This document shows, in pieces, positions 9,503 through 27,288 of a stretch of DNA of 29,176 nt. The translations under genes and the position numbers were made by a program. The DNA comes from a virus. The notes under the pieces are model-generated. The model was given only the letters and a program-made list of their open reading frames with translations. It searched no databases and was not told the DNA's origin. The stretch spans positions 1 to 29,176 of IMG/VR virus record IMGVR_UViG_3300037155_000011. One strand, given 5' to 3'. How positions within the stretch are numbered: the first letter of the stretch is position 1; each line of letters begins with the position of its first letter.

Positions 9503-10155
9503 CGCCGATTCGCGTTCGCGTTGGGCTCGCGCCCCGAGCGCAGCCCTTCGATGAGTCGATAGATTCGCTCAACGCTGCTATCCGAGCGGCGGAGGCTGCG
9601 GGATTTGAGATGGTGCTGGAGAAGATACGCGGCGGCGCACCAGGATTCCAGAACTGGGGTCCACTCATGGCGCACCTCATTGAATTCGGAGATACGCACC
9701 TATTCCTCGCAGCAGATGATGTGCTCTATCCTCCAGATACCATTGTTCGCTTGGTGAATGCTGACAAGGATGTGGTATGCGGAATCTATCGTAAAAATGT
9801 TCTCAAGGAACTCCAGCCAGCCAATCATTGTGGTTCGGCTGAAGAGTTCATGCGACGATTCAAAATGGGTGGACTCCATGAAACTGAGTTTGCCTCTGCC
9901 CACAGCCTGACCATCAAACGGCACGTCCTCGAGAAGATGATTGTCGATTATCCAGAGTTAGCCTATGGCGGGACTAAACCTTATTATGCACTGTCTCTTC
10001 CGATGGTCAAAAATGATTGGGTCTATCAGGACGACTGGGCCTTTTCGTTTAGGGCTCGCCAAAGTGGGTTTACCCTGTGGGATGATTTTGGATGCAAACT
10101 CAAACACTTCTGCTCTGACTTCCTAGGATTCGAGGCATTGGAAGGAAAACCATGA
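9499..10155 (+). CDS. Glycosyltransferase, GT-A fold, phage type
   Basis: A 218-aa soluble protein that probably transfers a sugar from a nucleotide-sugar donor. Residues 66-86 (THLFLAADDVLYPPDTIVRLV) fit the GT-A metal/nucleotide site with the acidic pair D73-D74 followed by the PPDT helix. CGIYRK at 94-99 and SLTIKRHVL at 136-144 fit the acceptor side. The C-terminal YQDDWAFSFRARQSGF (D178-D179) with H203 fits the 'ED-x-x-F-x-x-R-x-x-x-x-G ... H' block of family-2-like enzymes. It overlaps both neighbours by 4 nt (ATGA). It is inserted between the adaptor and an exported protein rather than near DNA metabolism, so a virion, fibre or cell-envelope substrate seems likelier than DNA. The acceptor and donor are unknown. 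Confidence 0.7.
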   Translation: MTPIRVRVGLAPRAQPFDESIDSLNAAIRAAEAAGFEMVLEKIRGGAPGFQNWGPLMAHLIEFGDTHLFLAADDVLYPPDTIVRLVNADKDVVCGIYRKNVLKELQPANHCGSAEEFMRRFKMGGLHETEFASAHSLTIKRHVLEKMIVDYPELAYGGTKPYYALSLPMVKNDWVYQDDWAFSFRARQSGFTLWDDFGCKLKHFCSDFLGFEALEGKP

Positions 10156-10466
10156 AAATCAAGACTATCGCTATTATTGTAGGCTTACTCGCCTCGTCCT
10201 TTGCCGTCGCTCAGAATCCTCCATACCGCGCTGAGGCTGCATATGTCTCGCCTTCAGCTGGCGTGTGGAATCCCTGGACCGCTGCTGCGGGATTTGGCTC
10301 TCTCAGTTTTGATCCTTATAAGATTTCGTTATATTGCCAGTTGGCTGATGGCCAGCCTTGGCAACCATGTAACCCGGGTGGCGGCAGCGGCAGGGTGGCA
10401 CCGACAAATACGGGGCTGTTGTCACTGGCCCAAGTGGAAATTATGTCAACCTCTGCTCCGCCGTGA
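10152..10466 (+). CDS. Exported protein, N-terminal part of a frameshifted gene
   Basis: ATG 10152 overlaps the glycosyltransferase stop (ATGA). Residues 1-21 (MKIKTIAIIVGLLASSFAVA) form a classic Sec signal peptide with A-x-A before QNPPY. The mature part has a cysteine pair (YCQLADGQPWQPC) and then GGGSG. After about position 10395 this frame gives an unconvincing tail (VAPTNTGLLSLAQVEIM), while the frame one base back gives GGTDKYGAVVTGPSGNYVN, continuous with the next coding segment. I therefore regard this and the following entry as one gene of about 264 codons broken by a net -1 shift. Function unknown. The glycine-rich loop and beta-type composition resemble fibre proteins. Confidence 0.65.
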   Translation: MKIKTIAIIVGLLASSFAVAQNPPYRAEAAYVSPSAGVWNPWTAAAGFGSLSFDPYKISLYCQLADGQPWQPCNPGGGSGRVAPTNTGLLSLAQVEIMSTSAPP

Positions 10467-10973: not shown

Positions 10974-12443
10974 ATGAGCAAGATTGGCATGATCGGAAAT
11001 TCGTACACGGCTCGCTCCAACGCGGTCGCGGACGAGGAAACGATCAACTGGTATCCCGAGACAATCGAGACGGCGGGAGCTCAGACCAAGGCGTCATTCT
11101 TCGGTACACCGGGACTGCTGGCGTTCTGCACGTTTGATGACGGACCCACGCGAGGAAGTTGCTGGACTGGAACTAGAGCCTTTGTTGCGTCAGGGGCGAC
11201 GCTCTATGAGGTATTTGCGGACGCGACCAAAGCAAAGCTCATGGATGGAACGCTCGATTCCTTCGGAGGGCCGGTTTCGATTGTCGCGAGCAATATCGAG
11301 ATATTGATCGTGGCCGGCGGCCGGGCATGGTGTATGGAACTCGCTACAAATACTGTGACGGATGTGACCGCACTTTTGGCCGGCGCTCCCGTCAAGGCAA
11401 GGTATTCAGACGGCTATTTCATCGTCATGTTCGCGGGCTCGAATAAGTTCCAGATTTCGGCCATTCTCGACGGAACTATATGGCCGGGGATTCAAGTCAA
11501 CGCCGTCTCCGTGTTCCCCGAGAACATCGTCTCCATCGAAGTGAGCCATCGGGAGCTTTGGGTGATTGGATCGCAGCACGCGCAACCCTACCAGGACACC
11601 GGAACGGATGAGGTTTTTGATGTCATCCCTGGGGCGCTGATTGAGACCGGCGGAGCGGCTACGTTCGGTATGGATTTACTTGACAATACGGTATTTCTGG
11701 TGAGTCAGGACATCCGCGGGGCGCGGCAGGCATGGAGGATGAGCGGATATACTCCGCAGCGCATTTCGACTCATGCAGTCGAAACTTCGCTGTCTTCGTA
11801 CACCGCAAATCAGATGGAGAACCTAGTTAGTTACTCCTATCAGGATGGGGGGCATTTGTTTTGGGTGCTTTACATCCCTGAAACCGACTGCACTTGGGTT
11901 TATGACGTTTCGACGGGCCTCTGGCACAAGCGGGCAGAGTGGCATGTCGACACCGGCACTTATGGACCGCATCGCAGTTGGAATCACATCTATGCCTTCG
12001 GCAAGCATCTGGTGGGCGATTGGCAGACCGGAACACTGAATGAGATGAAGATGGCCTACGACACTGGCGGCAACATCTACGCCTTTGTTACTGAGAACGG
12101 AGCGACGATTCGGAGGGTTAGGCAGTCCCCGACGCTGGTCAATGAGATGGAGTGGATTTATCATTCGCAGTTTGTCGCCGACTTTGCGACAGGACTTGGA
12201 CCGCAGCCTCCGCTGCAAGATGGGGGCGGTAATCCACGCCCCCCCCAAGCTATCCTGCAATGGAGCGACAATCGAGGTTCCGTTTGGTCGAATGAGTATA
12301 TCGCTGGGTGCGGCATGGCCGGGGAATACAACACTCGCGCCATCTGGCGACGGCTTGGGCGTTCGCGCTATCGAGTTTATAGGTTGATTGTCAGTGATCC
12401 GATTCCTTGGACGCTAGTGGACGCATATTTAGAGGCTTCATGA
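10974..12443 (+). CDS. Packaged-DNA stabilisation / tail hub protein (P22 gp10-like)
   Basis: A 489-aa protein close to P22 gp10 in length (472 aa). Gp10 binds under gp4 and closes the tail after packaging, giving the platform for needle and spikes. The N-terminus IGNSYTARSNAVADEETINWYPE followed by KASFFGTPGLL is typical of gp10-like hub proteins. The rest is a beta-propeller-like series of strands (VASGATLYEV, ILIVAGGRAW, GYFIVMF, ELWVIGS), and the region DCTWVYDVSTGLWHKR is also a family hallmark. GGAGGA at 10955-10960 is the likely ribosome site with rather long spacing (13 nt). The stop overlaps the start of the next gene by 4 nt. Assignment is supported by sequence features and by P22 order. 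Confidence 0.82.
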   Translation: MSKIGMIGNSYTARSNAVADEETINWYPETIETAGAQTKASFFGTPGLLAFCTFDDGPTRGSCWTGTRAFVASGATLYEVFADATKAKLMDGTLDSFGGPVSIVASNIEILIVAGGRAWCMELATNTVTDVTALLAGAPVKARYSDGYFIVMFAGSNKFQISAILDGTIWPGIQVNAVSVFPENIVSIEVSHRELWVIGSQHAQPYQDTGTDEVFDVIPGALIETGGAATFGMDLLDNTVFLVSQDIRGARQAWRMSGYTPQRISTHAVETSLSSYTANQMENLVSYSYQDGGHLFWVLYIPETDCTWVYDVSTGLWHKRAEWHVDTGTYGPHRSWNHIYAFGKHLVGDWQTGTLNEMKMAYDTGGNIYAFVTENGATIRRVRQSPTLVNEMEWIYHSQFVADFATGLGPQPPLQDGGGNPRPPQAILQWSDNRGSVWSNEYIAGCGMAGEYNTRAIWRRLGRSRYRVYRLIVSDPIPWTLVDAYLEAS

Positions 12444-13939: not shown

Positions 13940-14809
13940 ATGTCGGGAGCAATTTCAGCGACGACACTCGGGATTATCGGCGGGGTCACGGCTGCGGGCG
14001 GAGTTGCCAGTTCATTGATTGGGGCAAACGCGGCCGGCAAAGCGGCGGACGCTCAGACTCAAGCAGCACAGAGCGCACAGGCGTTGCAAGCCAAAGAGGC
14101 TCAGGACGCGCTGGACTTTCAGAAGCAGACGTATGCGACTGGGCAAGCGAACGAGGCTCCTTATCTAGCGGCAGGCGCAGGCGGGCTGAATGCGTTGCAG
14201 TATGGGCTCGGCACAGGTGGCACAGCAAACGGCTCAGGAGTCGCGCAAGGCTCTCTGACAACGCCTTACGGCCAAACATTTTCCGCGCCGACCGGGTTGA
14301 CTGAGCAGAATGACCCCGGATTTCAGGCTCGTCTCGCACTTGGTACTGATGCAATTCAGAAGAGTGCCGCGGCTCGGGGTTCGGTGGTAACGGGTGGCAC
14401 CGCGAAGGCTCTGGACACTTACGGACAGGACTATGCCTCGAACGAATATGGCAACGTCTACAACCGCGCACTGAGCACTTTCCAGAACAATTACAACGAC
14501 TACAACACGAATCAGACGAATCAATATAACAAACTGGCGGCACTGACTAACACCGGACAAACCACAGCTGCGAACACAGCGCAGCAGGGGCAGGCGGCGG
14601 CGAATAACACGTCAAACATCGATCTCACGACCGGCGCACAGCAGGGACAAGACCTAAATAACGCAGGTACGGCGACTGCATCGGGCTATGTTGGCGCGGC
14701 AAATGCGATCAACAGTGGGATCAGCGGGGTTACGAATGGAGTCTCAAATCTGGCCCTTATGTCTCAGTTGAGTAAATCGGGGTATAAGCCCCTCGGATGG
14801 GGAGGGTAA
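13940..14809 (+). CDS. DNA ejection protein (P22 gp7-like position)
   Basis: A 289-aa Ala/Gln/Asn/Thr-rich protein with the layout of podoviral pilot proteins. The N-terminal Gly/Ala hydrophobic segment (LGIIGGVTAAGGVASSLIGANAAG) could insert in a membrane, followed by a long Ala/Gln helix with repeated AQ. Then comes the block FSAPTGLTEQNDPGFQARLA ... SAAARGSVVTGGTAKALDTYG ... NEYGNVYNRALS, which is shared by many phage DNA-transfer proteins. These proteins are stored in the head and released ahead of DNA to build a channel through the envelope. The following two genes complete a three-gene ejection set as in P22 (gp7, gp20, gp16). The next ATG directly follows this stop. Confidence 0.75.
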   Translation: MSGAISATTLGIIGGVTAAGGVASSLIGANAAGKAADAQTQAAQSAQALQAKEAQDALDFQKQTYATGQANEAPYLAAGAGGLNALQYGLGTGGTANGSGVAQGSLTTPYGQTFSAPTGLTEQNDPGFQARLALGTDAIQKSAAARGSVVTGGTAKALDTYGQDYASNEYGNVYNRALSTFQNNYNDYNTNQTNQYNKLAALTNTGQTTAANTAQQGQAAANNTSNIDLTTGAQQGQDLNNAGTATASGYVGAANAINSGISGVTNGVSNLALMSQLSKSGYKPLGWGG

Positions 14810-16321
14810 ATGGGCAGTCTATCGGCACTTCCAGCACTCGACCTCAAGACACCTCAGCAGCCGAATCTCCTAGAGCAGTACAGCCAACTTCAGCAGTTGA
14901 AGGGTAGTCAGCAGTTGCAGCAAATTCGCGCTCAACAGGCTCCCTTGCAGCAACAGCAATTAGAGCAAGGTGTCCAGACAGGGAAGATTGATCTACAGCA
15001 GGCGCAGCAGGGGCAGCAGGATCAGCAGGCGTTCCGTGCCGCGACTCAAGACCCTTCCATGCAGGGCAAGACTATCGGTCAGATTGCTCAGGCGTTGGCG
15101 GCAAAAGGGCAGATTTCCCCCCAGGGATATGCAACTGCACAAAAAGCAGACCTTGATCATCAGGAGACGTTGCAGAAGTTGGATACTGGCGCACTCGCCA
15201 ACGCAGCCGCTGCGCACAAGCAAACCCAAGCACTTTACGACAACATAATGAACATGCCGGACGATCAACTTGCGGCGCAATGGCCGCAGATCGCGCAACA
15301 GGTCAACGCTATCCCCGGAAATAAGCAGACTCAGTTGAATCCGCAGCAGCCGATGACCAAGCAGCAACTATCGCAATTTGGACCGATGATCTCGATGGGG
15401 AACAGTTATCTCGATCAGGAGTTGGCACGGCGGAAGGCACAAGCTGATCTCGCAGAAACGCTATCCAAGCCGGGGAACCAGCAGCAGGAGCGCGATCAAG
15501 CGGCTGCAAACGCCAAGCAGACGCAGTTGAATGAAGATCGAGCGGCGGCGCAGCGGCAACAGGGAATCAACATCGAAGGCGCGCGGCTGAATTTTGAGAG
15601 GCAGAAGGAAGCCAACGTCAATGGCACCAGCCCTGAAGGAATGCAACTCGTGGATGAGATTGGAACGGGCAAAATGGCTGTTGACCGCTTGGCTTATTTA
15701 CTAGCTCGAAACCCTGCTCTAATGAGTGCCGTCGCGCAGAAATATCCCGATTTTGATAGTTCCAAGGTTGGAGCATATATCCAAGCCACTAAGGACTTCA
15801 CTAGCTCCAAGCCGAATACGGCAGGTGGGTCTTTGCTTGCAGGTTCAGTGGCTTTTAAGCATCTCCAAGAGCTAAAGGACATGAACACGCTAGAAAGTAT
15901 GAATCCATTGACTGCCGCATATACCGCCTACCAGAACAAGGCAGATACTGTATCGGGCGAGTTGGCGCGATTCTATCAGACGGACACGCTTCCCGGCATC
16001 GCCAGTATCAAGAGCACGCTTGCTTCACCTCTGGTCTATAAGCGCAACGCCGCAATCACGACTCAGGCGCAGTCGATGGGAGACCGCCTCAATAGTTATG
16101 AGCAGACTTGGAAGAACGCCGCTCCGAGTGCGGCATATGAAGCAAAGATGCCGGGAATTGATGCGGACGCGATGAAGGCTCGGGCCGCACTCGACCCGAA
16201 TTACAAGATGCCGACAAGTGGGGGCGGTGGAAACACTGTGGTCGCACCTAACGGCAAAACCTACAACTTCCCCGATGCGGCCTCAGCGGCGAAGTTCAAA
16301 GCGGCTGCGGGGATTCAGTAA
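14810..16321 (+). CDS. Internal virion / DNA ejection protein (gp20-like position)
   Basis: A 503-aa protein with a strikingly glutamine-rich N-terminal third (QLQQLKGSQQLQQIRAQQ and similar), then alternating Ala/Gln helices, and a more structured C-terminal half from about residue 270. Long Q/A-rich helices are typical of proteins ejected with DNA. I see no catalytic motif such as a transglycosylase E or a peptidase site. The end GGGNTVVAPNGKTYNFPDAA resembles short beta-hairpin domains at the ends of such proteins. Start: ATG 14810 follows the upstream TAA directly, with GGGGAGGG just before it. P22 order and size (gp20, 471 aa) support the call, though sequence identity to any family is not shown. 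Confidence 0.65.
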   Translation: MGSLSALPALDLKTPQQPNLLEQYSQLQQLKGSQQLQQIRAQQAPLQQQQLEQGVQTGKIDLQQAQQGQQDQQAFRAATQDPSMQGKTIGQIAQALAAKGQISPQGYATAQKADLDHQETLQKLDTGALANAAAAHKQTQALYDNIMNMPDDQLAAQWPQIAQQVNAIPGNKQTQLNPQQPMTKQQLSQFGPMISMGNSYLDQELARRKAQADLAETLSKPGNQQQERDQAAANAKQTQLNEDRAAAQRQQGINIEGARLNFERQKEANVNGTSPEGMQLVDEIGTGKMAVDRLAYLLARNPALMSAVAQKYPDFDSSKVGAYIQATKDFTSSKPNTAGGSLLAGSVAFKHLQELKDMNTLESMNPLTAAYTAYQNKADTVSGELARFYQTDTLPGIASIKSTLASPLVYKRNAAITTQAQSMGDRLNSYEQTWKNAAPSAAYEAKMPGIDADAMKARAALDPNYKMPTSGGGGNTVVAPNGKTYNFPDAASAAKFKAAAGIQ

Positions 16322-17830
16322 ATGGGATCGTCAGCAATCAATTACGATGCATTGGCACAACAGCATGGCGCGACCGTCGACTATGACGCGCTAGCGGCCC
16401 AGCATGGGGCGACTGCGCCGAAACAGGATGCTCCCACCCCCGAAGGCTTCTGGCACTCGCTCGGCGCCCAATTTGGATTGACGCCAGAGGCCGCACAAGC
16501 CGTTGCGCAAGATACGAAGGATCATCCCATCAAAAACCTGCTGTGGAACGCTCTTGGCCCCGCAGGAGTAGCGGCAAAGGGGCTCTACGATCAGGCCAAG
16601 CAGAGTGGTGGGGAGATTTCTCAGGCTGTGCAGGCAGGAAAGCAGGGCAACGCCGCTGGAGTGGTGCAGCACGCGGTCACAGCGATTCCGATTGTCGGCC
16701 CCGCTCTCAGCAAGGGCGCAGACCAATACGCAGACAAGAATTACGCGGGCGAGGCTGGGACTTTGCTCGGCGCATCGGCTCAGGCAGCTCCGCTAGTTGC
16801 AGGGGCAATCGAAAGAACCCCTGCCGGTCCTCCTCTACAACGAGCGGGACAAGCGGTTGAGGCCGCTCCAGGCCAAGCGGCTACCACAGTGGGACAGGCC
16901 GCGCAGGACGCCGGAACCGGCCTGATAAATAAGACGGTAGGAACGCTGAAGTCGGATTTCAAGCGGGGCGCTAATCCAGCCAGGGGATATCTGGCAACGG
17001 GTAACGGCCCCTCTATTTCGATGCAATCGCTTGCGGATAAGGGTTCGGCCGCGCTGGAAGATGTTGGGACTCAGCTTGGCGCGGCTTACAAGACTGCGGA
17101 CGCGACTGGACTAAAGATTCCGGTAGACACAGTGGCTCAAGAGATGGCAAAGCCGATTCAAAAGGCTATCGACCTCGAAACTGGGCCGGGGGGGACTGGA
17201 AATCTAGGGGCTATTCAATCGTATGTGCAGCAGTTTGGGCCTGCGTTCGAGAAAGCTGCACAGAACGGAGGTTTCACACCTTCCGAGCTATTCAAGATGA
17301 AGCGAGACATCGCCCAAAATACAAACTGGAGCGATCCAACCCAATTCAGCCTCAAGTCAGTTCGCCAGCAACAGGCGGGAGCGCTTTCCGGCATCCTTTC
17401 AGACGCTATTCCTGAGACGGCGGACCTCAATCAGATGTACCAGGATTTGACCAAGTTCACAGACCGCGCCACCGAACGTGCAAACACCGGCTCACGGCCC
17501 CTCACAGCACACATCTATAAGGCTGGCATGGCGGCTACAGGCGCTCTCGCGGGTGGAATGGAGGGTAACGCACTTGCGGGTGCTGCGGCGGGCGCATTGC
17601 TTGATTCTGTGCCGGTAAAGACGACTATCGCAAGTGGTTTGTATCGCGGCGGAAAGGCTCTATCTTCCCTTGGAGAACGACTTACCCCAGCGAACGGAAC
17701 GCCGATGGTAGCGGTACCCGGAAATAATCTGGCACGCTATAGCACAGATACAAAAACCAGCAATCCACAAGATGCGGCCACCATTCTTCGTAATCGTATC
17801 AAAGGCAGACTGAAGCCGAGTACCGACTAA
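16322..17830 (+). CDS. Internal virion / DNA ejection protein (gp16-like position) with N-terminal repeats
   Basis: A 502-aa protein starting with a tandem 14-residue repeat, NYDALAQQHGATV then DYDALAAQHGATA, a motif common at the start of large phage internal proteins. An Ala/Gly-rich middle follows (AAGVVQHAVTAIPIVGPALS). It could be membrane-active. A second Gly/Ala segment appears near residues 398-425 (AGMAATGALAGGMEGNALAG), a possible membrane hairpin. Basic residues dominate the end (RNRIKGRLKPS). ATG 16322 directly follows the preceding TAA. In P22 the third ejection gene is gp16 (609 aa). The assignment comes mainly from order, size and composition. No lytic transglycosylase motif is seen. 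Confidence 0.6.
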   Translation: MGSSAINYDALAQQHGATVDYDALAAQHGATAPKQDAPTPEGFWHSLGAQFGLTPEAAQAVAQDTKDHPIKNLLWNALGPAGVAAKGLYDQAKQSGGEISQAVQAGKQGNAAGVVQHAVTAIPIVGPALSKGADQYADKNYAGEAGTLLGASAQAAPLVAGAIERTPAGPPLQRAGQAVEAAPGQAATTVGQAAQDAGTGLINKTVGTLKSDFKRGANPARGYLATGNGPSISMQSLADKGSAALEDVGTQLGAAYKTADATGLKIPVDTVAQEMAKPIQKAIDLETGPGGTGNLGAIQSYVQQFGPAFEKAAQNGGFTPSELFKMKRDIAQNTNWSDPTQFSLKSVRQQQAGALSGILSDAIPETADLNQMYQDLTKFTDRATERANTGSRPLTAHIYKAGMAATGALAGGMEGNALAGAAAGALLDSVPVKTTIASGLYRGGKALSSLGERLTPANGTPMVAVPGNNLARYSTDTKTSNPQDAATILRNRIKGRLKPSTD

Positions 17831-17841
17831 GGATACCGCAA

Positions 17842-19041
17842 ATGACTCGATGGCTCCTAGTAATTTTTCTCGCAATCCCTGCATGGGCTCAAGTGCCAGT
17901 CGCGCCGATTGTCCAGCCCCACGTGACGTTCGTAAACGCCGCAGGCGGGCCTTGCGCGGGCTGTACGTTGGCAACCTATGTCGCGGGCACCACGACGCCC
18001 CTAGCGACGTATGTGGACGCTGGCGGGATATCGGTGAATACGAACCCAATCGTCATGGACGCGGCCGGCGGGGCAAATATCTGGCTCGCCAGCAGTTCCT
18101 ACAAACTCATCCTCAAGACCGCATTCGGAGCGACCATCTGGACAGTGGATCAGGTCAAAGGCGGCGGGGGCTTGGGAGGCGTTTGCGGGCCTGCAGGGGC
18201 AGTCCAGGTAGCGAACAGCGGCGTCAATGGTCTGACTTGTGATTCGTCCATCACAGTCAACACGACAAATCATACATTGAATGTCGGGACACTGCCTTCC
18301 AGCCATGTGTCCATCGGCGCGTTGGGAACGCCTACCGCCTGGGTATTCGATACCACGACTGCGGCCACCGCGCTTGCATCTCTAGGCGGTGGAGTGGTCA
18401 ACGCTGGGGCGATCAACCAATTGGCCTACTATGCCGAGGATGGAGAGATTCTTAGTGGCACTTTTGCTATCCCCAGCGGCACCACAGCCACAACCCAAAG
18501 CCCAAGCGATAGCAGCACGAAGGTGGCGACAACCGCATACGTGGCGGCACCTGGAATCGTCAACCCGACCAGTGTCCAGATAGCTTCCGGCACGGCTATG
18601 ACGGCCAATCAAGGAACCGGCGTCAAAGTACAGCACTCGACTGGCACCACGACCACCGACAACTGCGCGAAGTTTGATGCGGCTGGAAACACGGTGGACG
18701 CCGGCGCCCCTTGTGCGATTTCGGTAACTCTGGTGACAGGATCAGAGATTGTTGGATCTCGCGCGTTCGGTGCAACCTACCAAAACCTGACAGGCTATCC
18801 AATTTTAGTAAGCGGCAATGGACAGGCGGCGGCGGGCGGTTCAACGGCTGCGCTGACTTGTGGAGTTGGCCCTAGTTCGCCATCGGAAAATGTGTACTCA
18901 AATGGTTGGGGTGCTACTACGGCAGGAGGCTTTGAAGGCTTCTCCTGCCCAGTCCCCGCAAATTCTTATTATCGGATTGATGTTTCCGGCGACATCGGCA
19001 TTGGCGGAAGCTCGCACTGGCATGAAACGCAGGTTCAGTAA
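17842..19041 (+). CDS. Tail-fibre-like protein with Sec signal peptide, 399 aa
   Basis: AAGGA at 17829-17833 precedes ATG 17842. Residues 1-16 (MTRWLLVIFLAIPAWA) form a signal peptide with A-x-A before QVPVAP. Residues 26-104 match a domain common in phage fibres, with FVNAAGGPCAGCTLATYVAG, then TTTPLATYVDAGG and NPIVMDAAGGANIWL. A second fibre signature, SPSDSSTKVATTAYVAAP, is at about 218-236. The C-terminus (residues 320-399) is a beta-rich head with a Cys pair (LTCGVG ... FSCPVP). Several other close Cys pairs (PCAGC, VCGPAG ... LTCDSS) suggest disulfides, which fits export but is strange for a protein assembled in the cytoplasm. It is the first of five consecutive exported-looking genes. 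Confidence 0.75.
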   Translation: MTRWLLVIFLAIPAWAQVPVAPIVQPHVTFVNAAGGPCAGCTLATYVAGTTTPLATYVDAGGISVNTNPIVMDAAGGANIWLASSSYKLILKTAFGATIWTVDQVKGGGGLGGVCGPAGAVQVANSGVNGLTCDSSITVNTTNHTLNVGTLPSSHVSIGALGTPTAWVFDTTTAATALASLGGGVVNAGAINQLAYYAEDGEILSGTFAIPSGTTATTQSPSDSSTKVATTAYVAAPGIVNPTSVQIASGTAMTANQGTGVKVQHSTGTTTTDNCAKFDAAGNTVDAGAPCAISVTLVTGSEIVGSRAFGATYQNLTGYPILVSGNGQAAAGGSTAALTCGVGPSSPSENVYSNGWGATTAGGFEGFSCPVPANSYYRIDVSGDIGIGGSSHWHETQVQ

Positions 19042-19053
19042 GTGGAGAACAGG

Positions 19054-21177
19054 ATGAACAAATTCATATTCGCGGTATTTCTGCTATTCGTCCCTTCTCT
19101 TGGTGCCCAAGTGCAGATCGGGAAGGGTGTGCAGATAGGCGGCCTTAGTGCTATTGCCGATCCTGCCAACTTGAATGGGTTTCTCTATGTAAATCAATGG
19201 TGTACGACACCCGGAACTTTGGATGATACCTGTTTTTCTAACGCCATCGCTAACGTGGTAGCGCATGGTCCGGTGGGAAATAGCAGTCGCAAGATGGGCG
19301 AACTTGTTGTTTCTCCGGGCGTCTATACATTCAACAACACTGTGACGGTTCCCTTAGGCATCAATATCTCTATTCAGGGAGCGCAGGATAGCCTTTGGGG
19401 CTCAGTCATCAAGGCGGGATCGTCCCATCCCAACCTCTTTACGGTGCTGGCTGATTCAGTCACGATCCAGAACATCACATTCATCGGGGACGTGGGCGAA
19501 GACGCGATCGTGCTCGGATCTTCGACTAACGCACTCTACGACACGCACATCAATTGGTGTTGGTTCAACTCCTTCTCCAGGGCAATTCACATCATTAACG
19601 GCGGTGGACTCGATCTCTCTCACAACACGTTTGAGTACAATACGTTTGGCATTGCTTCCATCTATTCGAGCGGGGATGTGCGGGCGAATGACATCATCGC
19701 TACAGACCTGCGGGGCTACAGAAACTCGAATGGAGCCGTAAACCTAACCGGCGACACCACCGCCGCGAACTATGGCAATAATCAGTTTTCCGGCATATTC
19801 GATTACAACGGTGGGTCGGGCTATCCGCAGATCACGCTTTACGGCGTGACTGACACCCAGGTCTCGGGAAACTTCAATAACGGCTATCAGGACGATCTAC
19901 TAGTAGCGGGAGTGTCCAGAAATATCCTCGTTGGCCCTATTGTCGCCAACAACTCTGGACGTAACACGATTGCGGCCAACAGTGTGACGGGTTTGACCGT
20001 CGCCAACGTGTCGGCTCATAACACCAACGTCACGAGTGCTGCGGGAATCACGGCTGTTGTCAACGCGACCAACATCATCCTACTGACAGTCACGGGCGTT
20101 ACTTCTAATGGCACAGGGCTTGCGGCCTATGGCATCTACGTCGATGCGGCCTCAACTCTCGTTGACGTTTATGGAAACCAACTTTATGCCCAGGTCACGG
20201 CTGCTTATGACGTGCTATCTGCCACATCTACCACAGGCGGAACTAACGTCATGAATTATCTTACTTTAGAGAATGATGCAACTTCGGGAGACACTACCAT
20301 CGGCGTTTTTGGGCAAATCAATGTCACAAACCCGAAACAGCTATATTTGAAAATGTCTCCCGCCACAAACACGTTGAGCCTACAGGGTTCTCAGAGTGGC
20401 GTTGGCTACAACCAGACTCTAGCTCTGAATCCTCTCGGCGGACCAGTTACATCGGGAGGTTTGTTCGGCGCAGCGGCAGGAGTCAACCTTTCGGGAGCAG
20501 ATGCTCCACTAGAGTTTGCTGGGGACCCTGGAACGAGCGGACAGGTTCCTATCTCAGGCGGAACGGGCGGAACTCCACACTGGGGTGCGGGCGGTAGCGG
20601 TATCTCTGGCCTGACGGCTGGATTCATCCCTCTGGCTGGGTCGGGGACGACCATCACCGCCAACTCGCCTATGGACTATGGCGTGACCACAGCAAACGTG
20701 ATCACCTCAACCAAACCGATTGCAATTACGGGCACAACGCATGGCTTCACAATCGCGGCTGGCACGGCGGCGACGGGCGCGGCCGGAAGCGTGGTTTATG
20801 CCTCTGACTCAACCAACGGCTATGGCGAGATCAACGAGAACAATACCGGACTGTCGCGTCTCTGCACGGCGACGAATGGCATATGCGATAGTGGGGGAAT
20901 CTCGAATGTCACCATCACGACCGGAACCGGAGCAGTAAGTGCGACCTGCGCCTCTAACTCGCTTTCCAGTGCTGTAACGATGACAGGGCTTGCAACTACG
21001 AATACTTTGACGTTCACGCCCTCGACAGATGTTTCAAGCGTCACTGGATGGGATACGGGGGAATTGTTTATCGTCCCCGTGCTGGGAAGTGGGAGCTTTA
21101 CGTGGAGGCTTTGCACTGCCAACCCAAGCGGGACAACGCCGGGGGGGTCCGTCACTTGGAACGCGAGCGCAAAATGA
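19054..21177 (+). CDS. Exported right-handed beta-helix protein, tailspike-like, 707 aa
   Basis: I choose ATG 19054 over the GTG at 19042, because GGAG at 19044-19047 would lie 6 nt before 19054 and the signal peptide then begins cleanly (MNKFIFAVFLLFVPSLGA before QVQIG). Residues 30-350 look like a pectate-lyase-type right-handed beta-helix: GELVVSPGVYTFNNTVTVPL, then SIQGAQDSLWG, then ladders such as VTIQNITFIGD, DLSHNTFEYNTFG and TLYGVTDTQVSGNFN. Such folds bind or cut polysaccharide in phage tailspikes. The C-terminal 250 residues are Gly/Thr-rich beta repeats, and a Cys pair lies at CTATNGIC. No catalytic triad can be assigned. Its stop overlaps the next start by 4 nt. Confidence 0.75.
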   Translation: MNKFIFAVFLLFVPSLGAQVQIGKGVQIGGLSAIADPANLNGFLYVNQWCTTPGTLDDTCFSNAIANVVAHGPVGNSSRKMGELVVSPGVYTFNNTVTVPLGINISIQGAQDSLWGSVIKAGSSHPNLFTVLADSVTIQNITFIGDVGEDAIVLGSSTNALYDTHINWCWFNSFSRAIHIINGGGLDLSHNTFEYNTFGIASIYSSGDVRANDIIATDLRGYRNSNGAVNLTGDTTAANYGNNQFSGIFDYNGGSGYPQITLYGVTDTQVSGNFNNGYQDDLLVAGVSRNILVGPIVANNSGRNTIAANSVTGLTVANVSAHNTNVTSAAGITAVVNATNIILLTVTGVTSNGTGLAAYGIYVDAASTLVDVYGNQLYAQVTAAYDVLSATSTTGGTNVMNYLTLENDATSGDTTIGVFGQINVTNPKQLYLKMSPATNTLSLQGSQSGVGYNQTLALNPLGGPVTSGGLFGAAAGVNLSGADAPLEFAGDPGTSGQVPISGGTGGTPHWGAGGSGISGLTAGFIPLAGSGTTITANSPMDYGVTTANVITSTKPIAITGTTHGFTIAAGTAATGAAGSVVYASDSTNGYGEINENNTGLSRLCTATNGICDSGGISNVTITTGTGAVSATCASNSLSSAVTMTGLATTNTLTFTPSTDVSSVTGWDTGELFIVPVLGSGSFTWRLCTANPSGTTPGGSVTWNASAK

Positions 21178-21992
21178 CGAAGCGAATCCTTTGCGGTATC
21201 GTGCTTGCTGCGACTTGGCTGATGGGGGCCAAGCAGTACACGGTTGGGGCGCGCGGTTTCCATCATTCTTCGGCTGCGTCCTGTACCAACGCCGCTCCTG
21301 TCACAGCCACGTGGGATGCCCTAAGCACGTCGAACACCTGCGGGACTTCTGGCGGATCAGTTTGCAGCAACGGCCTCTATGCCTACGAAGCTTATGATGC
21401 GGTCTACCCCGGATACACGCAGGGTAGCGGATTGCAGCCAACGTACAATACGAACATTATCAACACACAGCCTGCGTGGATCTTCGGGGGCGCTCAATTC
21501 TTTCAGTTGCAAAGTCCAGCCGGTACAAATAACCCAATTCCTAGTTCGATCACGCAGTACACGTTTGTTGCCTACGGAATTGACTTCTCATCTTTCCCCA
21601 CACAGGCTCCGATCATTGGTGGATTGGGGAACAATTTATTGTGGCAGATTGAAAGCAACGTCCAGAAATTGCTCAGTGCTGGGGTAGCCCAGATTGGGGC
21701 AGGTACGGACACTATCAGCACGAGCACGCCATACACTCTCGCTTTCACCTACGATACAGGAGCGGCACAATTGACTTTCTACAAATGCAGTGGCGGCTCC
21801 TGTGTGCAGGACGGAAGCGGATCGACTACCAACACGCCGCCAACATCGCCAATCTACTTTCTAGGGAAAGATGGATATTCGACGCACTATCTAAATGCCT
21901 CTGTGCCTGAAATCGACTTCTACCAAGGGATTTATACCAGCGGCAATCTGAGTTCGGTTGCCACATACTCGCAAAGTTGCTACGGAATATAA
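21174..21992 (+). CDS. Exported LamG/concanavalin-like protein, 272 aa
   Basis: ATG 21174 overlaps the preceding stop (ATGA). A longer in-frame start at 21048 is rejected because it runs through the beta-helix gene. Residues 1-19 (MTKRILCGIVLAATWLMGA) form a signal peptide. The mature N-terminus is Cys-rich (SCTNAAP ... NTCGTSGG ... VCSNG). From about residue 85 the pattern WIFGGAQFFQLQSPAG, TFVAYGIDFSSFP, PYTLAFTYDTGAAQLTFYKC resembles a LamG-like jelly roll, a carbohydrate-binding fold common in phage and secreted proteins. A second close Cys pair (YKCSGGSC) again suggests disulfides. It belongs to the exported fibre block. Confidence 0.68.
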   Translation: MTKRILCGIVLAATWLMGAKQYTVGARGFHHSSAASCTNAAPVTATWDALSTSNTCGTSGGSVCSNGLYAYEAYDAVYPGYTQGSGLQPTYNTNIINTQPAWIFGGAQFFQLQSPAGTNNPIPSSITQYTFVAYGIDFSSFPTQAPIIGGLGNNLLWQIESNVQKLLSAGVAQIGAGTDTISTSTPYTLAFTYDTGAAQLTFYKCSGGSCVQDGSGSTTNTPPTSPIYFLGKDGYSTHYLNASVPEIDFYQGIYTSGNLSSVATYSQSCYGI

Positions 21993-21994
21993 CT

Positions 21995-22435
21995 ATGAAA
22001 CGAATCATCCTCATCCCGCTTCTCTTCGCCTCGCTTGCCCACGCGCAGACATGGGTCAAGGTGGCCAACGAAGGCGACTCTGTTACCGCTATAGCCACGG
22101 TGCGCTACGGCGCGGCTCAGGGGGCCACAGCGACCGCAGGCACCCCTTGTGCGACCGTGGGCGGCTGCTGGGTGCAGATATCGGTCGCAGGACCGTTCAC
22201 TGCCAATAACGCATTCTTCAAGAAAGACCCAATCAATGGCACGGCGAAAGAGTTGGACGTGCTGGAGACGGCATCGGTGCAGACGGTGACGGTAAACGGT
22301 AAGCCGGCAACGGTGTCGGCGCTCCCGCTTCCTCCGCCTCCGCCATCCATCAGTACACTCACCTTTAGCGCAACAATCAACTTCATGGGAACCAACGTGA
22401 CGGCAACCTGCACGGCTCCGGTGGTGAAGCAGTGA
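21995..22435 (+). CDS. Small exported RYGA-type (lectin-like) domain protein, 146 aa
   Basis: I use ATG 21995, which gives a clean signal peptide (MKRIILIPLLFASLAHA before QTWVKV); an in-frame ATG 18 nt upstream lies inside the previous gene. Residues 18-95 contain VKVANEGDSVTAIATVRYGA and then ANNAFFKKDPINGTAKELDV. This 'NEG..T....VRYGA ... N..F..DP..G..K..' pattern recurs, from memory, as a small accessory domain of secreted bacterial carbohydrate-active enzymes. A cysteine pair lies at PCATVGGC. A polyproline linker (LPPPPPS) leads to a short beta segment with a lone Cys near the end. A carbohydrate-binding role is inferred. It overlaps the following gene by GTGA. Confidence 0.6.
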   Translation: MKRIILIPLLFASLAHAQTWVKVANEGDSVTAIATVRYGAAQGATATAGTPCATVGGCWVQISVAGPFTANNAFFKKDPINGTAKELDVLETASVQTVTVNGKPATVSALPLPPPPPSISTLTFSATINFMGTNVTATCTAPVVKQ

Positions 22436-24912
22436 AGCGCCTTATCCAACTCGCCACAAGATACCCAGCGCTCGTGTCTTCAAAAACTATCAAGCAGGGA
22501 ATAAGGGCGCTGGGTGCCCTGCTGTTCGCGCTCGGCATGTGTGCGGGCGCGGCCTCAGCGACTACGTTTTACGTCCAGCCCCTCGGAGGCCCGCGCTACG
22601 ATGTCACCTACAATCCTACTGGCGACTCGTGCAGTGGACAGTCGAACGGAAACATGGTGGTGAGCGGTGGCCCAAATCAGTCGTGCGCGTTTAGCGATCC
22701 TCGCTATGTCTGGGCCAACGGCAGCGCAGCGGGCTTGATGGCGATGTCGGGCGGCGACACGCTGATACTTTCCGCCACGTACCCCGCAGGGCAGACGGCG
22801 TGGCGCTTCTCCGGACGCGCTGGTCCGGGAGCGCCCGATCTCTTCAATAACTACCAAGGCGTGAGCGGCGGTGATCCGTACACCGACTACAACATAAACT
22901 TTCCGGCTGGCAGTTCCGGCGCTCACACCCGCATCCTTGGAGCAAACTACGCAAGCTGCGGGGCGGGGCAGAAGACCAACATCTTCGGCGGCTTTGCGGC
23001 ACTGGCCGTCATCAATCTTCAACAAACCAGCTATGTAGATGTTCAATGCCTGGACATCACCGATCACAACAGTTGCATCAAGCACGGCACCGCGGGCCTG
23101 CCTTCCGTGTGTCAGAATGTTGTGCCTTACTCTGATTATGCCAATTCCGGAATTATGACTGTGACCAATGTAGGGTCGGCCGGATCGCAGTTGCCAAGCA
23201 ATATCATTTTGCAAGACCTCGACATCCACGGATTTCCCGACTCAGGTATATCGGGAGCAATCGGAGGCGCGTTTGCCTTGACTCGCGTAACTTCTAACCG
23301 CAATGGCTTCGCGGGGTGGAACTTTGATTTTGGTTCGGCGGGTAACGGCTTCCCAAACAATCCAGCAGCCACAATCAACGCGCAGTACGTGACGATGGAT
23401 TGGAACGGCTGCAACGAGGAGTATCCGATTGTTGATCCAATCCCGGTCACGTACTGCTATTCGATCATCAATCAGGGCTTTGGCGACGCGTGGAGCGGGC
23501 AGGACTCCGATCTTGCATCTATGACCTGTAATCACTGCGAGATGGCTTACAACGTAAAGGATGCGTTTTTTGGCCCCCACACGGCTATAGCCAGCGTCAC
23601 TATTACCAACTCGGCTGCGTTCAACAATGGCGGACAAACATGGAAAGCGAACATGGGCTACTCCGGCAGTTGGCTGATGCAGAATACATTGACGAATGAC
23701 AACTGTAGACGTTTAGCCCAGCCAGTGACGGGTGCCCCCTCGACCTTCAACACGCAGATAAACGGCGCTGACTACTGTCGCGCGGACGGGGCAGCACTCG
23801 CCGTTGTGTGGCCTGCGACCGGCTCTTTTGAAATTGACGACAGCACTTTTGTTGCAGCCTCGTCCAACGTATCCATTGACTTCACTTGCTGGAATACCTT
23901 CGCCACTGTCTCGGTTGGTTCTGGGGGAACGGGCTACACGAACGGAGACCTTCTTTATCCTGGAGGGACGCAGGCGGTAGTTCAAGTCACCTCCACTAGT
24001 TCGGGAGTGATTACCGGAGTCAGTCTCATATCGGGGGGACAGGTAACGAATGCTTCCGTCCCATTCACTGAGACCTATGTTTTCGGGGGAACCGGAACTG
24101 GCGCGCAGATCACGGTCAACACCGTCACCCCAAACAGTTGTGGTGGCGGGCCTCGCGTCATGCGCAACAACAATTTCATCGGCTACACAAACACCGATAA
24201 CCCCTCATGGAATAGTTCACAGATTGTTCTGTTTTGCTATTCAGGATGCAATGGCAACCCTGGAACCACGGACGATACAATGTGGACGCTCCGCAGCAAT
24301 AACAACTTCTACGGCTATGCCTCGGGGGGAGTTCACGGAGCCTGTACCTACGCGGGGGAGGTGTGCGCCACTCCGCTGATGACGGTTCAGCCTTCCCAAA
24401 CGTGGACCAATGAGACGCAACTGGACCCGTTTACACCGTCGTTGGCATCCACAAGCAACGCCTTCTATCCCACGTCTAGCAGTCCGCTACGGGGGGCAGG
24501 CGTCACCATCGCTGGCATCACGACGGACTACTACGGAGTAAGCCGGACAAGCCCTCCAGACATCGGTGGGGTACAGTACTCCAGCAGCACTCCAGGTGCC
24601 TACGATCCGACCTTCAGCCCAGTCGCAGGAACCTACGTGGGCACCCAGAATGTCACGCTCTCGACCGCAACCAGTGGATGCAGCGGCTACATGGTATGGA
24701 ACACGACCAACGCGCAGAGCGCTGGCAATCTGACGGGCACCAGCAGCACGAATCCACTCAGCGTGGCATCGTCTGAGACGGTGTATGCCCAAGTGCAGAG
24801 TTGCCCCGGCTACCTCAACAGCGGCGTCGGATCGGCGGCTTACACTATCACGGCGCCAAGCGGAGGAACAAAGATCAGCGGTGCGGTGATAGTGGGCGGA
24901 AAGGTACAATAA
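22432..24912 (+). CDS. Exported beta-helix protein with chitobiase C-terminal-like domain, 826 aa
   Basis: GTG 22432 overlaps the preceding stop. The N-terminal region is unusually long (about 43 residues): a basic, amphipathic stretch (KRLIQLATRYPALVSSKTIK) before the hydrophobic core ALGALLFALGMCAGAASA, cleaved before TTFYVQ. Residues 44-700 form a right-handed beta-helix with ladder segments (IILQDLDIHGFPDSGIS, VTITNSAAFNNGGQTWK) that ends in DYYGVSRTSPPDIGGVQYSS, the usual cap of such secreted proteins. Residues about 723-810 (TFSPVAGTYVGTQNVTLSTA ... VYAQVQSCPGYLNSG) match the CHB_HEX_C_1-type chitobiase C-terminal domain. There are about 20 cysteines, many in close pairs. This is probably a cell-surface or tail polysaccharide-binding protein; a lyase activity is possible but no active site is assigned. 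Confidence 0.72.
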   Translation: MKRLIQLATRYPALVSSKTIKQGIRALGALLFALGMCAGAASATTFYVQPLGGPRYDVTYNPTGDSCSGQSNGNMVVSGGPNQSCAFSDPRYVWANGSAAGLMAMSGGDTLILSATYPAGQTAWRFSGRAGPGAPDLFNNYQGVSGGDPYTDYNINFPAGSSGAHTRILGANYASCGAGQKTNIFGGFAALAVINLQQTSYVDVQCLDITDHNSCIKHGTAGLPSVCQNVVPYSDYANSGIMTVTNVGSAGSQLPSNIILQDLDIHGFPDSGISGAIGGAFALTRVTSNRNGFAGWNFDFGSAGNGFPNNPAATINAQYVTMDWNGCNEEYPIVDPIPVTYCYSIINQGFGDAWSGQDSDLASMTCNHCEMAYNVKDAFFGPHTAIASVTITNSAAFNNGGQTWKANMGYSGSWLMQNTLTNDNCRRLAQPVTGAPSTFNTQINGADYCRADGAALAVVWPATGSFEIDDSTFVAASSNVSIDFTCWNTFATVSVGSGGTGYTNGDLLYPGGTQAVVQVTSTSSGVITGVSLISGGQVTNASVPFTETYVFGGTGTGAQITVNTVTPNSCGGGPRVMRNNNFIGYTNTDNPSWNSSQIVLFCYSGCNGNPGTTDDTMWTLRSNNNFYGYASGGVHGACTYAGEVCATPLMTVQPSQTWTNETQLDPFTPSLASTSNAFYPTSSSPLRGAGVTIAGITTDYYGVSRTSPPDIGGVQYSSSTPGAYDPTFSPVAGTYVGTQNVTLSTATSGCSGYMVWNTTNAQSAGNLTGTSSTNPLSVASSETVYAQVQSCPGYLNSGVGSAAYTITAPSGGTKISGAVIVGGKVQ

Positions 24913-24997: not shown

Positions 24998-25690
24998 ATG
25001 AGCGTCGACACTACTACGCACGAGAGCAGTTCGCGCACTGACCCGACCAAGCTGACAACCGACCAGCTAAATAGGGAAATCGAAACACTCAAGGCACTGC
25101 TTACCGTAAATATAGACAATCTCCATGAGGATATAGTTGCGCTGTTCAACCAGCAGAAAGCCGTGCCGGATCGGATAGTTCAAGAGGTAAACCATCTTAG
25201 AGAGTTAACGGAAGCTCGTTTGGCAGAAGCGGCGGTCGCAACTAAGCTATTGCAGGCCAGTACAGATAGAACACCAGCACAGGTGGATGAAAAGATCAAG
25301 GCGTTGGCAGACGTACACAACGAAAAGTTTTCCTCTATCCAAAATCAATTCAGAGAGCGCGATGTGCGCGCAGACCAAACATCTAAACAAGATAAGGTCG
25401 CTATCGACGCTGCACTGCAAGCACAGAAGGAAGCCGTGGGTGAGCAGAACAAATCATCGGCGCTGGCTATTGCGAAGAGTGAGGCGTCGACTGACAAGCG
25501 AATCGACCAGCTAGGCGGGTTGATACTCAGTACCGCGAAGAATGTGGACGATAAGTTCTCCGACATGAAGGACCGAGTAGCCTTGATTGAGGGCCGGGGA
25601 ACGGGAGCAAAGGATAGCTGGGGCTACCTTGTCGGATTTGTGGGGATAATTGCCGCCCTTGTTGCTGTATTCATGGCGATGCACAGATGA
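24998..25690 (+). CDS. Coiled-coil protein with C-terminal membrane anchor, 230 aa
   Basis: Residues 18-195 are almost entirely predicted helix and rich in Ala, Glu, Lys, Gln. The segment RTPAQVDEKIKALADVHNEKF followed by IQNQFRERDVRADQ is a strongly conserved motif in phage proteins of unknown function, often beside lysis genes. The C-terminus is a single hydrophobic span (GYLVGFVGIIAALVAVFMAMH, about 209-229), so the protein is tail-anchored with a long soluble N-terminal domain. GAGGGA at about 24984-24989 precedes ATG 24998. It overlaps the endolysin gene by ATGA. A spanin- or holin-like part in lysis is a reasonable inference from position. The preceding 85 bases hold no gene that I can see. 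Confidence 0.7.
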   Translation: MSVDTTTHESSSRTDPTKLTTDQLNREIETLKALLTVNIDNLHEDIVALFNQQKAVPDRIVQEVNHLRELTEARLAEAAVATKLLQASTDRTPAQVDEKIKALADVHNEKFSSIQNQFRERDVRADQTSKQDKVAIDAALQAQKEAVGEQNKSSALAIAKSEASTDKRIDQLGGLILSTAKNVDDKFSDMKDRVALIEGRGTGAKDSWGYLVGFVGIIAALVAVFMAMHR

Positions 25691-26148
25691 ACGACGCCAT
25701 CTCCAATCAGCGTCTCGCCCTCTGTATGCCTGCCTTAGTTGCGAAGGTCAATGCAGCGGCCAACCTGCTCGCTATGAATAGAGTCTATTGTCGGGTTGAC
25801 GATGCCCTGCGGACATATGCCGAGCAAGATGCTGAATTCGCTAAAGGCCCCGCATTCACCCGCGCGCGCGGAGGTTATTCCGCTCACAACTTCGGCATGG
25901 CCGTCGACTGCGTTCCCTTCCTGATTGGGACAACTGGGGCACTCGACTGGAACCCCAAGAGTGACAAGTTTCAGATGATGGTTGCGGCCATGAAAAAGAG
26001 CGGATTAGAGTGGGGCGGAGACTGGGTTCATATGCACGGAGATTTTGACCACTTCTATATCGGCCCTGCCACCCCGACAGACGCCGACCGGCAGGCGTTT
26101 GCAAAGGGCGGATTACCCGCAGTTTGGCAGTTGTACCCACAAGAATAG
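25687..26148 (+). CDS. Endolysin, peptidase M15 type
   Basis: A 153-aa enzyme predicted to cut the peptide stems of peptidoglycan at the end of infection. The metal site of the M15 (VanY/L-alanyl-D-glutamate peptidase) family is visible: SAHNFGMAVDC gives H67 and D74 (S-x-H-x-x-G-x-A-x-D), and DFDHFYIG gives the third ligand H122, with W113 before it. Around residues 85-100 (LDWNPKSDKFQMMVAAMKKSGL) is the usual helix preceding the second site. The protein lacks a signal peptide and membrane segment, so it should need a holin to reach the wall. Length and motifs fit phage endolysins of this class. It is coupled to the coiled-coil membrane protein. Confidence 0.88.
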   Translation: MNDAISNQRLALCMPALVAKVNAAANLLAMNRVYCRVDDALRTYAEQDAEFAKGPAFTRARGGYSAHNFGMAVDCVPFLIGTTGALDWNPKSDKFQMMVAAMKKSGLEWGGDWVHMHGDFDHFYIGPATPTDADRQAFAKGGLPAVWQLYPQE

Positions 26149-26165
26149 GCGTATGATGGCGGGAA

Positions 26166-26292
26166 CGGGAGTCGCAAGCCGGAGCCTCAGATGCAATTCG
26201 GACAGGGGGCTTAGTGGTTTGCCTAGTCGGGCCAGAGTTATTGCCGTTGAAAGCGGATATTCCAACGATAACTTAGTGGTCTGAGACTCCCG
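26166..26292 (+). ncRNA. Candidate structured RNA between endolysin and holin
   Basis: In the 162-nt gap after the endolysin, CGGGAGTC (26166-26173) pairs perfectly with GACTCCCG (26285-26292). Immediately inside, TCAGA (26187-26191) can pair with TCTGA (26280-26284), and AAGCC (26176-26180) can alternatively pair with GGCTT (26208-26212). A strong inner hairpin has AGTTAT (26236-26241) pairing with ATAACT (26268-26273) and CGTTG (26245-26249) pairing with CAACG (26263-26267), with a 3-nt bulge and 13-nt loop. CTTAGTGGT occurs twice (26210-26218 and 26272-26280). No good coding frame fills the gap. A regulatory or packaging-related RNA is inferred. It does not fit a tRNA. Confidence 0.45.
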
Positions 26293-26310
26293 GTAAATTT
26301 GAGGGTTCGC

Positions 26311-26616
26311 ATGGACACGATCAAGGCATGGCTGAAAGCGCACTCGTTTAGCTCCAAATCGGTTGTAACGGCGTGGCTGGCGGTAGTGTTTCTCTACGGC
26401 AACAACTCGGCTTTCCACGATTATGTGATGCACGCCTATACCTCCATCCCCCATGGGCTCCACTCCTTCGTGGTCGGAATCGTCATACCTGTCGCCATCT
26501 TCTGGCGCACGACGCACAGCACGAAGGTATCGGCCGAGATCGAGGATGGAGTTCCGGGAGTGGTCAAAGCCTCGGCATCTGCGTCCACCACTGACCTAAC
26601 CGCACCCCCGAAATAA
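26311..26616 (+). CDS. Holin-like membrane protein, 101 aa
   Basis: GAGGG at 26301-26305 precedes ATG 26311, which I prefer to an in-frame TTG 12 nt earlier. The product has two hydrophobic spans, about residues 16-32 (SVVTAWLAVVFLYG) and 51-68 (LHSFVVGIVIPVAIFW), joined by a short polar loop with His and Tyr, and then a hydrophilic Ala/Ser/Thr-rich C-terminal tail. This is the shape of a class II-like holin, and it sits just after the endolysin. Holins have little sequence conservation, so the call is by topology and neighbourhood. It could also be another small membrane protein. The structured region lies directly upstream and could control its translation. Confidence 0.6.
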   Translation: MDTIKAWLKAHSFSSKSVVTAWLAVVFLYGNNSAFHDYVMHAYTSIPHGLHSFVVGIVIPVAIFWRTTHSTKVSAEIEDGVPGVVKASASASTTDLTAPPK

Positions 26617-26628
26617 AAGGAGACCCAA

Positions 26629-26862
26629 ATGGAACATCCAATGCCCTCCAACGACCCTCAGATTGAAGCGTGGTTCACTTACCATTCTCCCAACGAAGAT
26701 CAACAGAAACGCTATGTGGAGCTTCGTGCAGCCGCGAAGAATCTAGCCTACTCAATCAAATCTTGCACGAAGCCGAGTGCTGATCAGTCAGCGGCTTATC
26801 GTCTATTGCGCGAGTGCGTGATGACCGCCAACGCATCAATCGCTCTAGAATCGAAGGAGTAG
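26629..26862 (+). CDS. Acb2/Tad1-hairpin-like protein, predicted cyclic-nucleotide sponge
   Basis: A 77-aa protein with AAAGGAG at 26616-26622, 6 nt before ATG. Residues 10-73 show the consensus I associate with the Acb2/Tad1 hairpin family: WFTYHSP (15-21), Q-x-x-x-Y (Y29), LRAAAKNLA (32-40, with K37), then a P-S-A-D turn at 49-52, and LLRECVMTANASIAL (59-73), i.e. two helices forming a hairpin. Acb2 of Pseudomonas phages and Vs.4 of T4 bind cyclic di- and trinucleotides and so block CBASS, while related proteins counter Thoeris by trapping ADP-ribose signals. Here it is placed with the lysis genes and probably expressed late, which is odd for an anti-defence protein. Family placement is from memory of the pattern. 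Confidence 0.72.
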   Translation: MEHPMPSNDPQIEAWFTYHSPNEDQQKRYVELRAAAKNLAYSIKSCTKPSADQSAAYRLLRECVMTANASIALESKE

Positions 26863-26865
26863 CCC

Positions 26866-27288
26866 ATGAAACGACTTGCACTCTGCCTGATTCTTCTCCT
26901 GCCGCTGGGATGCAGGACAGCGACAGCCCCAGCACCGCCCCTGGCACCGGGGCTCCAGGGCTACATTAGTCCAGCCGATCAGCAGATGGCTCAGATTCTC
27001 TCCGGAGCACGGACGTTTTACAACACAGTCCAGTGCGAGACGCAGACGCTGAATTGGTCGCAGGTAGCGCAAAAATGCGTGGCCGATTCGAAGATTATGC
27101 AGCCGATGATCCTCAGCACCACCGAGAAGACAGCGTTCCGCGATTTTATGGCGAGTCTGAATGCAGCCGAGACATTGCATCTGGCGTACCATAACGGGAC
27201 AGGGACGACCCAGGCCGCCGCCCAGAACGCAGTGAATACAGTTCAAGTCAAACAAGCAGCCCTCCCAGCATTGGCGGTGATAAAGTGA
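26866..27288 (+). CDS. Lipoprotein of unknown function, 140 aa
   Basis: AAGGAG at 26854-26859 is 6 nt from ATG 26866. The N-terminus MKRLALCLILLLPLGC is a lipoprotein signal with lipobox L-P-L-G-C, so C16 should be lipidated and the rest periplasmic. A Pro-rich linker follows (APAPPLAPG), then a mostly helical domain (residues 35-140) with two cysteines (VQCETQTLNW ... KCVADSK) that may pair. Position after the holin candidate makes an outer-membrane spanin subunit possible, but the domain is longer than typical and no matching inner spanin is clear. A superinfection-exclusion lipoprotein is the other possibility. Confidence 0.65.
   Translation: MKRLALCLILLLPLGCRTATAPAPPLAPGLQGYISPADQQMAQILSGARTFYNTVQCETQTLNWSQVAQKCVADSKIMQPMILSTTEKTAFRDFMASLNAAETLHLAYHNGTGTTQAAAQNAVNTVQVKQAALPALAVIK

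Follow-up and report, generated by a model that had tools for sequence, protein, structure and literature searches.

The tailspike of a P22-like podovirus of soil Acidobacteriota and the fibres encoded beside it are probably made as Sec preproteins that would be exported, cleaved and oxidised, and would join the virions at lysis. The virus is represented by IMGVR_UViG_3300037155_000011, a single virus record of P22-like podovirus type whose whole stretch of 29,176 nucleotides is called the window here. The first gene of a five-gene block in it (17842-24912) encodes a tailspike head-binding domain of P22 type with a signal peptide in front of it. Predicted export of the block products is well supported by sequence statistics, and attachment of the exported spikes to virions is likely. 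Assembly of tailed phages is held to take place entirely in the cytoplasm, and to our knowledge no tailed-phage spike joins virions after export; no report of exported tailed-phage spikes was found in the literature searched, which took in few of the subscription journals.

The morphogenesis module is P22-like and runs, in order, through large terminase, portal, scaffold, coat, hub, DNA-ejection protein, the block and the lysis genes, with the ejection-type genes directly upstream of the block (Table 1). A first-pass annotation of this DNA had described the block as five consecutive fibre or spike genes with signal peptides and paired cysteines; all five genes are present where it placed them, and its picture of a coordinated set of signal-peptide-bearing products has held. 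Xanthomonas phage PBR31 shows both synteny and homology with the window, and the spike encoded at the same place in PBR31 has no signal peptide; adaptor homology between the window gene at 12407 and PBR31 gp27 was looked for and not found. Searches of Pfam and NCBIfam with the five block products of the window gave nothing firm, and the 19054 product had no match in the databases searched. Among the domains guessed earlier, LamG-like and RYGA-type domains went undetected, whereas the chitobiase-type guess found a counterpart in a relative, whose last block gene encodes CHB_HEX_C_1 and Big_2 domains. Two further features were noticed: between the coat gene and 7247, two overlapping plus-strand frames (6833-7244) look like one frameshift-split HNH/homing-type protein, and a GNAT-like acetyltransferase is encoded inside the tail module (13057-13497), where PBR31 also has an annotated acetyltransferase.

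Table 1. Coordinates of the block and of neighbouring features in the window
Feature	Coordinates	Strand	Basis or remark
Sixth product with a predicted signal peptide, 104 aa, 2 Cys, outside the block	10152..10466	+	Signal-peptide scan
Hub protein (Hc3, P22 gp10-like)	10974..12443	+	phrog_578, E 4e-84; 31% identity to PBR31 gp26 over the full length
Ejection-type proteins, three genes, 0 Cys	13940..17830	+	phrog_598 (first gene); order as in PBR31
First product, predicted Sec signal peptide	17842..17889	+	MTRWLLVIFLAIPAWA, then Q; signal-peptide scan and relatives
First product, P22-type tailspike head-binding domain (virion anchor) with extra C-x-x-C loop GGPCAGC	17890..18204	+	Homology, PDB, model
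First product, fibre stem and variable C-terminal tip	18205..19041	+	Alignment of relatives
Second product, signal-peptide-bearing, large fibre/spike candidate	19054..21177	+	Mature start QVQIGKG kept in relatives
Third product, marginal signal peptide, 6 Cys in mature part	21174..21992	+	
Fourth product, short, clear signal peptide, C-A-T-V-G-G-C	21995..22435	+	
Fifth product, long signal peptide, 20 Cys in mature part	22432..24912	+	Family common to Tunturi phages and host exoproteins
Endolysin	25687-26148	+	Downstream of block (25687..27288 is endolysin plus Rz1-like lipoprotein)
Rz1-like lipoprotein	26866-27288	+	Lipobox LPLGC read in the sequence; downstream of block

Residues 18-105 of the first product share homology with the domain at the N-terminus of spikes from cultured podoviruses. 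A profile search against the PDB matched 7eeq, at E 4.5e-16 when all rows were used and at 7.6e-9 when the profile was limited to signal-peptide-bearing rows, and 9vyg was also matched by sequence. The head-binding domain was modelled by itself from a deep alignment, with rows from the annotated phage collection left out (pLDDT 80), and matched the corresponding domains of Pan3, Pam1, P22 and Sf6 with Z of 9-12, several of these having been solved on virions; the full-length prediction (pLDDT 44, monomer) was not used. Behind the anchor, the alignment of first products shows a conserved stem (ATTAYVA..GAINPTSV) and a strongly variable C-terminus. Like P22 gp9, Sf6 gp14 and the spikes of Pan3 and the cyanophage Pam1, the mature 17842 protein thus begins with the head-binding domain, in the same fold, and like P22-type tailspikes in general it is encoded at the same place in the gene order of a P22-like module. 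Unlike them, it carries a Sec signal peptide ahead of the domain rather than being made without one in the cytoplasm, it is rich in cysteines, which come in even numbers, and its domain has the extra C-x-x-C. Each record gave one match to the anchor domain, and no locus of the signal-peptide-bearing kind holds two. The hub protein (10974..12443) is the expected docking partner of the domain.

These features bear on whether the proteins, predicted to be exported, reach virions at all. It is possible, though rather unlikely, that they stay off the particle after export. They would then work on the host surface or in the medium, by acting on polysaccharide as enzymes, by masking receptors or by excluding superinfection. 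Export of fibre-like proteins is known from bacteria, examples being the MAT fibres of Bdellovibrio (PMC10769870) and Pantoea WceF, a tailspike-like enzyme according to its PDB title (6tgf). By description, MAT fibres resemble the block products in being phage-fibre-like, signal-peptide-bearing and exported from a bacterium, and differ from them in being encoded by the predatory bacterium itself and in having a conserved beta-rich domain of their own, about 130 aa long, behind the signal peptide (PMC10769870). Such a role leaves aside that the first product retains a head-binding domain and occupies the position of the PBR31 spike gene. Moreover, these genomes gave no second, signal-peptide-less spike carrying the domain, so the virion would otherwise be spikeless.

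Cultured phages also argue against export without attachment. A homologue of the 22432 product led to the Tunturi phages of Tunturiibacter. In the podovirus Tunturi 2, a phage of Tunturiibacter psychrotolerans X5P2, gp12, gp13, gp14, gp16 and the 22432-type gp17 have signal peptides, and four of these proteins contain 10-34 Cys; in the siphovirus Tunturi 4, gp114 passes the signal-peptide scan described below and the signal peptide of gp113 is clear by eye. Tunturi 2 is an infectious phage whose large genes annotated as fibres fall inside the signal-peptide block. A host requirement for signal peptides on fibres was considered and rejected, since they are lacking from the annotated tail fibres of Tunturi 3, which shares its host strain with Tunturi 2. 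The paper on the Tunturi phages makes no mention of signal peptides or virion proteomics.

For the last block product, 22432, a polysaccharide-active role is a real alternative, because its body is common to signal-peptide-bearing chromosomal proteins, two of which lie beside polysaccharide genes. Of 298 Acidobacteriota genomes, dozens encode such proteins, to which this body (about residues 25-490) is mostly 30-44% identical, and 76 of the 298 contain a match once those confined to the C-terminus are included. Three of these chromosomal exoproteins are L280, L281 and L282, and the two examined for their surroundings (L281 and L282) adjoin glycosyltransferase, WbsX, flippase and epimerase genes, which places homologues of 22432 in polysaccharide-synthesis loci. 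The chromosomal proteins share with 22432 the body, the signal peptide and a content of about 20 Cys, and differ from it in lying on the chromosome, outside any phage tail module. Thus, 22432 may also, or instead, be an exported polysaccharide-active protein. A role in exopolysaccharide modification had earlier been suggested for the whole set; in light of the host relatives it is most plausible for 22432. The head-binding domain of 17842 points to the virion.

Export itself is read from the N-termini. Signal peptides were scored by a von Heijne-type matrix combined with rules for the n-, h- and c-regions. Where the first-pass annotation had seen five, the scan is passed by four products of the block (17842, 19054, 21995 and 22432), all with small residues at -3 and -1 as expected for substrates of Sec and signal peptidase I, and elsewhere in the window only by the lipoprotein at 26866 and by the product at 10152-10466, which had been missed. 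Cleavage is predicted between MTRWLLVIFLAIPAWA and QVPVAP in 17842, MNKFIFAVFLLFVPSLGA and QVQIGK in 19054, MKRIILIPLLFASLAHA and QTWVKV in 21995, and MKIKTIAIIVGLLASSFAVA and QNPPYR in 10152-10466; the 22432 product, whose GTG start overlaps the preceding stop codon, has a long n-region and a 42-residue signal peptide. The 21174 product (MTKRILCGIVLAATWLMGA, then KQYTV) is marginal, with good n- and h-regions and a poor cleavage site that fails the strict rule. The gene at 10152-10466 lies upstream of the hub gene, and no counterpart was seen there in the relatives L056 and L059.

The scan is a loose rule, passed also by 11 of 102 spurious ORFs and by 5-21% of shuffled N-termini, and with so many false positives its score was rejected as proof by itself. 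Hence, the claim rests on comparison with relatives. Among these the signal peptide varies in sequence while the mature start stays constant (AQVPVAP in the first gene, AQVQIGK in the second), with a median identity of 0.44 in the signal peptide vs 0.64 in the N-terminal 90 residues of the mature protein. Signal peptides are again encoded by the large genes that relatives have between their ejection and lysis genes, and the ejection proteins of these relatives have neither signal peptide nor cysteine. A gene-calling error was also rejected, given the start/stop overlaps, the ribosome-binding sites of most starts and the conserved mature start.

The head-binding domain was then compared across all 154 distinct instances. 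In 116 the protein begins with Met at the domain itself and so lacks a signal peptide, 29 have one, and the other 9 are open or unclear; L200, a doubtful case among the 29, was excluded from later tests. The expectation that spikes of this kind normally lack a signal peptide was borne out, as the homologues examined from cultured phages of hosts other than Acidobacteriota all begin with Met at the anchor domain. The mature chain of the signal-peptide forms would start within a few residues of the start of these shorter homologues. A C-x-x-C motif is present in one loop of the domain in 25 of the 29 signal-peptide forms and in none of the 125 others (Fisher 6e-25, kinship ignored), the signal-peptide-less forms reading PLxGG there. 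This count is weakened because the instances are related by kinship: a tree built without the loop columns shows at least four changes of the signal-peptide label, and C-x-x-C goes with the label in 3/3 informative independent pairs, too few for significance. In a later search of 298 genomes from the order of Edaphobacter aggregans the domain was found in 8, 7 of them new. All seven new loci encode a signal peptide, none has C-x-x-C, and 4 of the 5 complete proteins have even cysteine numbers. The signal peptide is thus the more general rule, and the C-x-x-C loop the narrower one. Signal peptides recur in the same block in the relatives, in all seven of these Acidobacteriota genome loci and in the Tunturi phages. 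In an E. aggregans prophage (L154, 19.7 kb), the signal-peptide-bearing spike gene directly follows the small terminase gene; no capsid genes were noticed in this locus, which is perhaps degraded or satellite-like.

The cysteines are the main reason to believe in export. The named pairs (CAGC, CATVGGC, CSGGSC) are present, and the earlier remark that head proteins are poor in cysteine was confirmed: the block has 46 Cys in 2350 aa, compared with 12 in 3718 aa of head, tail and ejection proteins (1.96 vs 0.32 per 100 aa; Fisher p 3e-10). In complete signal-peptide-bearing anchor proteins the number of cysteines in the mature part, ranging from 4 to 28, is even in 22/22, and disulfide pairing would leave such even counts. 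Signal-peptide-less homologues that contain cysteine have an even number in 40/75, that is, at random. When all signal-peptide-bearing proteins, including other fibres, are taken together, the number is even in 41/45, or 29/33 after clustering at 50% identity; two of the six such products in the window are odd, namely 19054 with 7 and 21995 with 3. A calibration on secreted host proteins used 400 kb of Edaphobacter, too small and crude a sample. The DsbA and VKOR families are present in E. aggregans, the named host of such a prophage. Export, which had been proposed before, thus gains new support from even cysteine numbers after removal of the signal peptide and from a C-x-x-C found in signal-peptide forms alone.

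The same counts speak to whether the N-terminal segment is removed. That it stays uncleaved as a membrane-active or virion-anchoring element, as had been suggested for the N-terminus, is very improbable: the poor cleavage site of 21174 and the many false positives of the score would allow it, whereas a separate head-binding domain follows the segment, the mature start behind the predicted A|Q cut is conserved, and counting the cysteines of the segment itself breaks the parity, which falls from 22/22 to 11/22. We conclude from these comparisons that the signal peptides of the block products are, as predicted, real and cleaved and that the mature proteins would be disulfide-paired. Equally hard to credit is a pair of forms, one exported from the annotated start and one made in the cytoplasm without a signal peptide from an internal start and going onto virions as usual. 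GTG codons that directly follow the predicted cut, codon 18 of 17842 and codon 20 of 19054, speak for it; against it, these codons have no ribosome-binding site in front, no start codon is conserved at one position among relatives, and a cytoplasmic form would leave the pairing of all cysteines unexplained.

Export followed by attachment at lysis would then proceed as follows. The signal peptide would send the chain across the inner membrane, signal peptidase would remove it, leaving a mature chain that starts near the start of the signal-peptide-less homologues, and the cysteines would be oxidised in pairs in the periplasm. Heads of the P22-like family are filled in the cytoplasm, and an exported spike would have to meet the virion, so the two would be joined at lysis: particles assembled in the cytoplasm would meet the exported spikes there, the head-binding domain would dock on the tail hub, and the virion would be completed outside the cytoplasm. 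We infer this last step because the head-binding domain has been kept, because the gene order fits, and because these genomes show no second spike that has the domain without a signal peptide. With more reserve, we favour the wider view that in one group of tailed phages the virions are completed extracytoplasmically, with a receptor-binding spike module that is Sec-exported, cleaved and disulfide-bonded in the periplasm and that attaches to particles still lacking spikes, at lysis or later; its exported pool may act on host polysaccharide before lysis, and the arrangement would have evolved repeatedly and be frequent among Acidobacteriota phages of various morphotypes. If this is true, the last assembly step takes place during or after lysis, spikes from one cell could dress the particles of another phage, and the host surface would be exposed to depolymerases before the cell lyses. 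For annotation, it would mean that a signal peptide on a fibre gene is not an error. The cultured Acidobacteriota phages Tunturi 1, 2 and 4 make the proposal testable.

A receptor-binding virion protein made with a signal peptide and disulfide-bonded in the periplasm is established in pIII of filamentous phages, which would be analogous to the proposed spikes in these respects; filamentous phages, unlike tailed phages, assemble in the membrane, and the likeness to pIII carries no claim of homology. The block can also be compared with two products of phages of Proteobacteria, PBR31 gp35 (L007:8142-8951) and gp19 of Burkholderia phage BcepC6B (L240:6001-7074), each a short fibre with a signal peptide and paired cysteines encoded beside the spike gene; unlike in 17842, no head-binding domain was noticed in them. 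A C-terminal tip related to that of gp35 and gp19 is also found, without a signal peptide, in fibres of Klebsiella and Pectobacterium phages.
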